Part shown: piece after piece, positions 13,085 through 16,027 of the stretch
Position numbering within the stretch: position 1 is the stretch's first letter
How the letters are laid out: every line of letters begins with the position of its first letter
Assembly: GCA_949286705.1 (NCBI GenBank)
Contig: CASEDF010000005.1
Coordinates: forward strand, 62,001 to 126,000
Reading direction: 5' to 3'
Source of the DNA: an uncultured bacterium
GTDB lineage: Bacteria > Cyanobacteriota > Vampirovibrionia > Gastranaerophilales > Gastranaerophilaceae
Length of the DNA stretch: 64,000 nucleotides
The notes under the pieces: generated by a model
The model's database searches: none
What the model saw: only the letters and a program-made list of their open reading frames with translations
What the model was told of the DNA's origin: nothing
Made by a program: the position numbers and the translations under genes

Positions 13085-13114
13085 TAAAAAAGCGGGTATT
13101 AAACCCGCTTTTTT
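13085..13114 (-). terminator. Terminator of the NTase-PGI gene
   Basis: The stem AAAGCGGGT / ACCCGCTTT is flanked by A and T runs on both sides, so it can work in both directions. It separates this gene from the GH13-like gene downstream. Confidence 0.9.
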
Positions 13115-13145
13115 ATTAATATTCTTAATAAAATTAATAAAAATG

Positions 13146-15233
13146 TTATTCGGAAATTCTTCCCGGAACAACGACTCCGCCTTTAAGGTTCTTTTTGTAA
13201 TATTCAACATGCGGCTGGAGGACGCTGTCAAGAACTTCGGGGAATTGAATACCCTGCATAATTTTTTCAACGATTTCCTGATAAACAGTTGCGAATGCTC
13301 TCAATTGAGTCATCGCGCCTGCTGCTTCAGGGGTTAAGCCCATTCCTTTTGTTTCAACTGATTCGTTGAAGAATGAGCCCATGCTTTCGTAAGATTTTTT
13401 CAATGCGTCAATGTAGCTTTCTGCATTTTCTCTGCAAACGCCGTGGTCTTTAGGTGTTGTCAGTGCAAATGCAAATTTGTTTGCAGGGTTAAAGTGAGCT
13501 TCTGCACTGTGGTGCATTGCATCAGGAACTTTTGCAACCTGTTTGAGAGTATTTTTAACTGATTCATTCTGCATCTGAGCATGCCAGTAAACAGTATTTT
13601 CGAAGATTGAACCCATATACTGGTGAACTGATGTCAAAATTCCGTTGAGGGTTGCATTTGCCCAGAAAATACCTTCTTTTAAGGCAATATTTTTATCAAG
13701 ATCAGCCGTCAGGGCGCGGGATGAAATTTCCTGAGCTGCTTCAAGCATTTGAACCATATCGGTTTTTGCCATACCTGCATAAGCCAGTGTAAACAAAGCA
13801 TGATCATCAAATGCAGAGAATCTTCCGCCTACATCATCGTGGATATAAAGATCTCCCAGCCAGCCTTTTTCATTTGAAGTTCTTCTTAGCTCGCTTTTTT
13901 CAGCATTGCCGTCAGTTACTGCTATAAAGTGTTTAGAAGCAAGTTCTTCATAGTTTGAATGTCCTTTTGCTTTGTATTCATTTTCAAGCATTGTTTGAAT
14001 TCTTAAAAATCCGTCTTTTGTTTCAAAAGTTGAGCCTGATTTTGAGGCGATAAGATAATTTGATTTTGTAATATCGCCAAGTCTGTACAGGTATCTTTCA
14101 AGACTTGCGGAATCAACGTCCGAATAGAAAAGGATTTTGTCCTGATTTACGTTAAGTCCGTTTATGCTGAGCATGTGTTCAACTGTGTGTTTTGAGCCGC
14201 CGATACCGAGTACGCTTAATTTTTCAGCGCCTGTTTGATTTTTTAATTTTGCGGCGAGTGAATAAATTTCATCAACGCGTTTAATTTGTTCCTGCGGTAA
14301 GTTTACCCAGTTTAGGAATTGTCCTTTTTTGTTCGCGCGTGATGAGAATTCATTTACAAATTCGGATACTTTTGATGAGTATTTGCCGAAATCTATTCCG
14401 GTAAATTCTGCCGATACCCCGAGATTTTGGGATAGAACTGCTGTGTTTTCTGTCATTATGACCTCCTTTTTAAGTTCTTTTATAATTTCTTTTAAATATT
14501 TTTCTTTTTCGTTTATCGGTGATGTTATAAGATTTTCAATATTCTGTTCAAAGTTTTCGGGTAAAATTTTGCAGTTTTCTTTTGCAAATTTAATTAATCG
14601 TTTTTCGCCCGGATGAAGCTGTTTATTCAGTGTAAAAATTACGTCAAAATAGCTTGCCAAAAACGCGGTTATGCGGTGATTAACGCTGTTGACGTCGCCT
14701 CTTTTCACGGCGAGCAGAATTTGATCCGTAAAAGTCGCCGCCATTTTGCCGTATAAAAGCGGAAGATTTTTCGCGATAATATTTTTTGCAAGCTGTTCGG
14801 GATATTCACTGTTAATCCTGTTTTGCAAATTTTTGTACCAGCCGTCCGTATCATATAGGATTTTTGAATTTTTAATATTATAAATAAAGCATGTTGAATA
14901 TCCGACAGAGGCGCCAAAGTTATTCCAGATGCGGTTAACCTGGTCCTCAATCCATTCGGGCGAACGGTACATAATGTCAATACCTTTTCCTGAATCTTTT
15001 AAAATCCATTCATCGCCGTTTTCAAAAAAATTATTATCAATTTCGTATTTTGCAGCAAATTTTTCGGCAATTTTGAATCTTTTTTCAGGATTTATTGAGT
15101 TTTTTACGTAAAAATACAAATCGTAATCCGAAACTTCATCGTCATAACCGCTTGCGGATGACCCTCCGAGCGCTATGGCTTTTATATCTTCGTCGTTTTT
15201 AAATTCATTAACTATTTCGTCTAAGATATTCAT
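13146..15233 (-). CDS. pgi: Nucleotidyltransferase domain fused to glucose-6-phosphate isomerase
   Basis: A 695-aa frame in two parts. Residues 1-259 form a nucleotidyltransferase-like domain with GGSSASG and DYDLYFY, the DxD metal motif of the Pol-beta/aminoglycoside adenylyltransferase fold, plus a helical C-part. Residues 260-695 are glucose-6-phosphate isomerase, with SKSGSTFETK, DDVGGRFSAF and HHSAEAHFNPANK. The PGI half begins with its own Met preceded by a perfect Shine-Dalgarno (AAAAGGAGG, 14470-14462). PGI alone (436 aa, from 14456) is therefore probably made as well as, or instead of, the fusion. The outer ATG has no Shine-Dalgarno but a TATAAT box 8 nt upstream. The NTase substrate is unknown. 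Confidence 0.85.
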   Translation of the reverse strand: MNILDEIVNEFKNDEDIKAIALGGSSASGYDDEVSDYDLYFYVKNSINPEKRFKIAEKFAAKYEIDNNFFENGDEWILKDSGKGIDIMYRSPEWIEDQVNRIWNNFGASVGYSTCFIYNIKNSKILYDTDGWYKNLQNRINSEYPEQLAKNIIAKNLPLLYGKMAATFTDQILLAVKRGDVNSVNHRITAFLASYFDVIFTLNKQLHPGEKRLIKFAKENCKILPENFEQNIENLITSPINEKEKYLKEIIKELKKEVIMTENTAVLSQNLGVSAEFTGIDFGKYSSKVSEFVNEFSSRANKKGQFLNWVNLPQEQIKRVDEIYSLAAKLKNQTGAEKLSVLGIGGSKHTVEHMLSINGLNVNQDKILFYSDVDSASLERYLYRLGDITKSNYLIASKSGSTFETKDGFLRIQTMLENEYKAKGHSNYEELASKHFIAVTDGNAEKSELRRTSNEKGWLGDLYIHDDVGGRFSAFDDHALFTLAYAGMAKTDMVQMLEAAQEISSRALTADLDKNIALKEGIFWANATLNGILTSVHQYMGSIFENTVYWHAQMQNESVKNTLKQVAKVPDAMHHSAEAHFNPANKFAFALTTPKDHGVCRENAESYIDALKKSYESMGSFFNESVETKGMGLTPEAAGAMTQLRAFATVYQEIVEKIMQGIQFPEVLDSVLQPHVEYYKKNLKGGVVVPGRISE
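14454..14470 (-). promoter_or_regulatory. Internal ribosome binding site and start codon for stand-alone PGI
   Basis: AAAAGGAGG, then 5 nt, then ATG (14456-14454), inside the open fusion frame. No stop codon separates it from the upstream nucleotidyltransferase frame. Confidence 0.75.
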
Positions 15234-15281
15234 ATAAAAATATTATACTAAAAAAATATCCAAAGATATTTATGTTTATAG

Positions 15282-15308
15282 TATAATTTTTAACAGGATA
15301 GACTGTTA
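15282..15308 (+). promoter_or_regulatory. -10 box and 5' stem-loop of the NifU-like gene
   Basis: TATAAT at 15282-15287, then the perfect stem TAACAG / CTGTTA (15291-15296, 15303-15308) at about the transcript start. Such a 5' hairpin could stabilise the mRNA. The opposite-facing -10 box of the NTase-PGI gene is at 15242-15247, so the promoters are divergent. Confidence 0.55.
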
Positions 15309-15325
15309 ATGAAAAAGGAGGCCAA

Positions 15326-16027
15326 ATGGGCAAAATAGAAATTACACACGAAATTGAAAATCAATGCTGTGTATGCCGCGGAGTTAAAGGCGTACCGGCA
15401 CCAATCCCTCAAGAAGGCGAATGGACAAAATGTAAAGAAATCAAAGACATATCAGGTCTTACACACGGCTGCGGATGCTGCGCACCTCAGCAGGGTACCT
15501 GTAAATTAACACTTAACGTTAAAGAAGGTGTTATTCAGGAAGCTCTTGTTGAAACTATCGGATGCTCCGGCATGACTCACTCTGCTGCTATGGCAGGTGA
15601 AATACTTCCGGGCAAAACAATTCTTGAAGCTTTGAATACTGACCTTGTTTGCGACGCTATTAACGTTGCAATGAGAGAATTATTCCTGCAAATCGTATAC
15701 GGCAGAACTCAATCAGCATTTTCTGAAAACGGTCTTCCCGTAGGTGCAGGACTTGAAGATTTGGGCAAAGGACTTTGCTCAATGGTTGGTACTATTCATT
15801 CAACTAAACAAAAAGGCGTTAGATATCTTTCATTGACTGAAGGTTATATCCTGAAAATGGGTCTTGATAAAAATAACGAAGTTATCGGTTATCAATTCGT
15901 TAACCTCGGCAAAGTTATGGACGCTATTAAAAAAGGCGTTGATCCTAAAGAAGCCTATGAAAAGAATATCGGTACTTATGGCAGATTTGCTGATGCCGTA
16001 AAATATATCGATCCTCGTCAAGAGTAA
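15326..16027 (+). CDS. NifU-like iron-sulfur scaffold-type protein
   Basis: A 233-aa Cys-rich protein. The N-terminal third has CCVCRG and HGCGCCAPQQGTC. The middle resembles the IscU/NifU fold (IGCSGMTHSAAMAGEILPGK, then LNTDLVCDAINVAMRE). The start has AAAAAGGAGG. It precedes the GGGtGRT gene at 16135, and from memory these two families often occur side by side in anaerobes. The role is likely Fe-S or metal related but not established; the extra N-terminal cysteines set it apart from housekeeping IscU. Confidence 0.7.
   Translation: MGKIEITHEIENQCCVCRGVKGVPAPIPQEGEWTKCKEIKDISGLTHGCGCCAPQQGTCKLTLNVKEGVIQEALVETIGCSGMTHSAAMAGEILPGKTILEALNTDLVCDAINVAMRELFLQIVYGRTQSAFSENGLPVGAGLEDLGKGLCSMVGTIHSTKQKGVRYLSLTEGYILKMGLDKNNEVIGYQFVNLGKVMDAIKKGVDPKEAYEKNIGTYGRFADAVKYIDPRQE

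Follow-up and report, generated by a model that had tools for sequence, protein, structure and literature searches.

Does an open reading frame that joins a nucleotidyltransferase (NTase) to a glucose-6-phosphate isomerase (PGI) encode a new enzyme system, or two old proteins that have come to share a frame? This question is raised by a locus of an uncultured bacterium of the Gastranaerophilales, found in a stretch of 64,000 nucleotides that was analysed as a whole (hereafter, the window). Among the papers searched, none reported an NTase-PGI fusion or a Gastranaerophilales PGI. In summary, the fusion, found in a few related gut bacteria, appears to be an accident of recent evolution and not a new enzyme system, and comparison of the related sequences indicates that two products are likely to be made from the locus.

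Two domains in one frame

As shown in Table 1, the NTase is open in frame into the PGI-like protein without a stop, just as a preliminary description of this DNA had stated. The terminator-like hairpin beyond the stop codon has a T run on the plus strand and an A run on the other side, and is possibly bidirectional.

Table 1. Positions of the features of the NTase-PGI locus in the window
Feature	Position	Strand	Remarks
Open frame of 695 aa, NTase followed in frame by PGI-like protein	13146..15233	-	ATG to TAA; recurs in relatives
Nucleotidyltransferase, aa 1-259	14457..15233	-	Standalone homologues in sister species have 258-260 aa
Pol-beta NTase catalytic domain	15021..15218	-	GGS..SDYD and IDIM motifs
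DUF4037 C-terminal helical domain (HEPN-type, Aminoglycoside_NT_C)	14601..14879	-	
PGI-like protein, 436 aa, aa 260-695	13146..14456	-	Own ATG at 14454-14456
Internal Shine-Dalgarno AAAAAGGAGG	14462..14471	-	In-frame reading Lys-Lys-Glu plus the G of Val
Possible weak hairpin with the Shine-Dalgarno in its loop	14434..14478	-	Arms 14473-14478 and 14434-14439
Predicted -10 region TTTTTAGTATAAT	15242..15254	-	8 nt between the end of TATAAT and the outer ATG
Terminator-like hairpin beyond the stop of the frame	13085..13115	none assigned	13 pairs

The identity of the NTase was confirmed by two Pfam matches above the cut-offs, Polbeta (6.3e-08, aa 6-71) and DUF4037 (3.7e-06, aa 119-211). The GS...DxD motif and the third aspartate are present; G24, S25, D36, D38, and D86 are invariant in 22 NTase homologues. 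In the literature, DUF4037 is the HEPN-type domain found at the C-terminus of aminoglycoside NTases (PMC3710099), and the window NTase carries this helical domain as ANT/LinB-type nucleotidyltransferases do. A search of solved structures by sequence gave only chance matches for the NTase. The best fold matches of its AF2 model (pLDDT 93.6) in Foldseek were ANT(4′), LinB, and kanamycin NTase, with E values of about 1e-8 to 1e-7 and TM scores of about 0.6. These matches extend across all 259 residues. Thus, the modelled NTase resembles the ANT(4′)/LinB small-molecule adenylyltransferases (PDB 1kny, 6p06, 3jyy), sharing with these and kanamycin NTase the Pol-beta domain, the three aspartates, and the HEPN-type C-terminal domain, while the identity is 12-17% and the window NTase, in this clade only, is fused to a PGI. 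The suggestion of sugar-nucleotide chemistry in the preliminary description is not supported; the closest folds are antibiotic and small-molecule adenylyltransferases and not sugar-nucleotide enzymes. Among curated antibiotic-NTase families, LnuB and ANT(4′)-I matched far below their cut-offs; therefore, resistance is not claimed. An identity as the type VII antitoxin MntA was rejected (25 of 60 bits, below the cut-off, and no HEPN gene pair seen at the locus), as was a HEPN-MNT toxin-antitoxin or defence role, for which PADLOC gave only a weak PDC-S09 match at 0.011.

The PGI-like part matches NCBIfam PRK14097 at 1.1e-21, yet with 77 of 443 bits, which is far below the curated cut-off, and Pfam PF00342 was not reported for it. 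Its fold, however, matches those of PGIs. A sequence search of solved structures retrieved solved PGIs, and the model (pLDDT 76, pTM 0.83) superimposes on 1zzg with a Z score of 33 (rmsd 3.1, 375 residues), all of the top rows being PGIs. When aligned to the canonical PGI that this genome also encodes, the Lys139-Thr143 loop, Arg212, Glu298, His316, Gln414, and Lys421 coincide with its residues at the positions known to be catalytic in the PGI family. The alignment thus places a catalytic Glu, His, Lys, and Arg and a phosphate-binding Ser/Thr loop in the PGI-like part. The fold, the KSGST loop, the Arg of VGGRFS, and the catalytic residues are shared with glucose-6-phosphate isomerase (PF00342; PDB 1zzg, 3ff1, 1c7r), whereas the identity to solved PGIs is about 20% and the Glu298-His316 segment is shortened.

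The genome of the window has three PGI-family genes. One is canonical (L001, on contig C2); the other two, the window copy and G000:C3:141947-143248 (L002), are lineage-specific and 63% identical. The window protein is an additional paralogue that PF00342 misses and that stays below the NCBIfam cut-offs. Judged from its sequence, it is a divergent, lineage-specific PGI that has kept its catalytic residues intact and exists alongside the canonical one. This PGI-like family occurs in all 16 genomes of the genus and in many of the genera sampled from the family, and PF00342 misses not only the window copy but also a second member, L046. Its substrate may differ from glucose-6-phosphate.

Two starts

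The PGI part was said to have its own Shine-Dalgarno and start codon. Indeed, AAAAAGGAGG lies five nucleotides before its ATG, and the full internal site, AAAAAGGAGGTCATAATG, occupies positions 14454-14471. The Shine-Dalgarno of the isomerase now codes for the final NTase residues (KKEV). An AAGGAGG-N3..8-ATG arrangement occurs twice in the 64 kb, against 0.43 expected from shuffles, the second site being the start of the divergent gene at 15326. When upstream sequences were compared, AGGAGGTC before the PGI ATG was found to be kept in the sister species as well, where a TATAAT-like box and AACAAGGAGGTC lie in the spacer ahead of the isomerase ATG. Between the two subclades of fused genomes, the junction (the last eleven NTase codons and the ATG) has 0.08 differences per codon, while the NTase averages 0.68 and the PGI part 0.37, and no other 12-codon stretch of the NTase part is as low. 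Such low divergence is expected if the ribosome binding site is in use. These comparisons indicate that the isomerase gene has conserved its ancestral start inside the frame; thus, it very likely still yields a 436-aa product of its own. As for the hairpin around this site, its pairing is kept in L036 with one compensated pair (A-U to G-C), and its folding strength is not significant (z -1.56 and -0.92).

It was also correct that the outer ATG has no Shine-Dalgarno upstream, but about 45% of the larger ORFs in the window (21/47, by a crude count) are alike, so that the lack is unremarkable. It may be explained by the TATAAT so close to the start codon, which predicts a leaderless mRNA; the spacing to this box, without a clear -35, is the basis for predicting that the NTase transcript is leaderless. 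The -10 box is conserved in the genus, and in most members its distance to the start is 6-8 nt. In L035, L037, and L040, it lies 17-18 nt from the start, with a longer leader that has SD-like bases. A promoter scan reported no minus-strand promoter-like site between the two domains, and it likewise missed the outer TATAAT. The region 15234-15325 has two divergent promoter-like boxes, TTTTTAGTATAAT on the minus strand and TTTATAGTATAAT on the plus strand, which separate the NTase from the 233-aa gene at 15326, a gene 98-100% identical across the genus.

Is the outer start used at all? The 436-aa isomerase might be the sole product made in quantity, with the NTase start essentially silent and its frame serving mainly as upstream DNA. 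The AT-rich, leaderless context of an outer ATG lacking a Shine-Dalgarno would agree with this, as would the very strong and conserved internal site. Among the fused genomes, however, dN/dS is 0.07-0.19 for the NTase and 0.02-0.08 for the PGI. Therefore, both parts are maintained as proteins under purifying selection. Since the catalytic residues of the NTase are also all kept, the NTase appears to be translated and selected, and a silent start is very improbable.

Distribution of the fused frame

Is the fusion common in relatives? I searched 146 genomes of the family and 192 of the order (the sets overlap), and 16 of the genus. In the genus, the PGI-like protein is found in 16/16 genomes and the DUF4037 NTase in 12/16. 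Seven genomes have the fused frame, namely G000 (the window), G096 (L033), G153 (L034), G152 (L035), G134 (L036), G148 (L141), and G149 (L140), versus nine non-fused ones. The 695-aa frame is shared by L033/L004, L034/L134, L035/L135, and L036/L005; it is partial in L140 and L141, where contig ends cut the frame and the junction is open. In a tree built from the isomerase and two proteins encoded next to it, the fused genomes form one clade (support 92/91), which includes L038, a contig-cut copy of G148 with the same junction DNA.

Most of the related genomes are metagenome-assembled, and one might think of a lost stop or an indel produced by sequencing, assembly, or binning. The same frame in six other genomes rules out a sequencing error or indel behind the fusion. 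The junction is common to all seven genomes; several of these are 90-96% identical in protein sequence, and there is a 6-nt length difference that preserves the frame. The probability left for an artefact of any of these kinds is negligible.

The sister species show various arrangements. In L037 and L041, the NTase ends with TGA and TAA, respectively, followed by 24 and 42 nt before the isomerase gene. In L051, 17 nt are missing at the junction, and the NTase frame extends 71 nt into the isomerase gene in another reading frame. Here the junction of a sister species collapsed separately (L051 4750-4831, G116:C2). In L040, the two genes are 1826 nt apart; the intervening region (L040 1787-3537) has two small genes for HTH-like regulators and, on the minus strand, two genes of the secreted-protein type. 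L039 has no NTase at the isomerase locus. Thus, among the genomes searched, conservation of the fusion is restricted to the one clade of seven. A stop or a frame break, which the preliminary description had named as evidence against its reading, does occur in sister species within the genus.

Among the matches listed for the about 200 family and order genomes sampled, there was no other fused NTase-PGI frame, neither a repeated fusion nor one in another lineage, and the NTases of other genera are unlinked to PGI and have varied neighbours. No common neighbour of the standalone NTases was found in 15 loci. The idea that the fusion functionally couples nucleotidyl transfer to glycolytic flux has no support: the pair is split in sister species and unlinked elsewhere, and a canonical PGI is present.

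Origin of the fusion and related systems

How did the frames become one? The fused NTases have 257-259 aa and the standalone sister NTases 258-260 aa; therefore, the fusion did not bring in a linker. The NTase codons CTT AAA lead directly into AAGGAGGTC in the fused clade. With high probability, the fusion is a young, clade-limited one made by spacer deletion, in which the old internal start was retained and from which two products are expected. The ancestral state would have been the one seen in L037 and L041, where the NTase gene stands by itself just upstream of a lineage-specific PGI-like gene in the same direction, the latter with its own -10 box, strong Shine-Dalgarno, and ATG. In the ancestor of the seven species, loss of about 25 nt between A-rich tracts would have taken out the NTase stop, the spacer, and the isomerase promoter, joining the last NTase codons (Leu-Lys-Lys) to the AAGGAGG of the isomerase, and the frame across the junction would have stayed open by chance. 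When deletions that keep the Shine-Dalgarno were enumerated in the sister spacers, about 31-32% were in frame and 3-7% were in frame and open. Therefore, the event needs no special cause. It is also conceivable that an older collapse of the junction was later reopened, given the uncertain near-basal position of L051 in the tree.

At present, transcription would start from the TATAAT of the NTase, at or beside the outer ATG. Ribosomes that enter at the presumably leaderless outer end, probably inefficiently, would make the 695-aa fusion, and those that bind the preserved internal site would yield the 436-aa isomerase in its normal form, probably as the more abundant product. Each domain may retain its ancestral activity: transfer of a nucleotidyl, probably adenylyl, group to a small molecule by the NTase, and isomerisation of ketose and aldose phosphates by the PGI-like part.

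An alternative is a bifunctional enzyme, in which the tethered NTase acts on a product of the isomerase or controls the isomerase itself, with the free 436-aa form adjusting the stoichiometry via mixed PGI dimers. The frame has been retained open in seven species across a PGI dS of about 0.7 between the two subclades, with purifying selection on both parts, and there are precedents for full-length and internally started products that assemble together (CTP1L endolysin, PMC4777826; Cas11b, PMC11899642). However, in a simple neutral model that fixes only AGGAGG and ATG, the junction is open in both subclades with a P of about 0.62; persistence is thus expected under neutrality and is no evidence for selection on the fusion. 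Moreover, the fusion brought no shift in dN/dS, there is no linker beyond the C-terminus of the NTase itself, and the fusion is confined to one clade whose sisters have an unfused pair or lack the NTase, which is unlinked to PGI elsewhere. A bifunctional enzyme is therefore unlikely. I regard it as quite unlikely that the fusion was selected for mixed dimers of the 695-aa and 436-aa forms that carry an adenylyltransferase whose substrate is made or sensed by the isomerase, the ratio being set by leaderless versus Shine-Dalgarno initiation.

One genus presents a natural series of genes that are apart, adjacent, overlapping out of frame, and fused in frame. If the locus arose by spacer deletion, the series illustrates how deletion of a spacer can turn a ribosome binding site into coding sequence while the site is still under selection. 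It is also a warning for annotation: a gene caller will report a single gene of 695 aa although two products are likely, and the standard PGI profile does not catch the isomerase part.

Internal in-frame starts are known from other systems. Cas11b is made from such a start in cas8b, which gives a full-length and a short product (PMC11899642). The window locus has in common with Cas11b and the CTP1L endolysin a strong internal start in one frame and a C-terminal part that is a complete domain. In contrast to both, the internal start of the window locus appears to be the old start of a separate gene.
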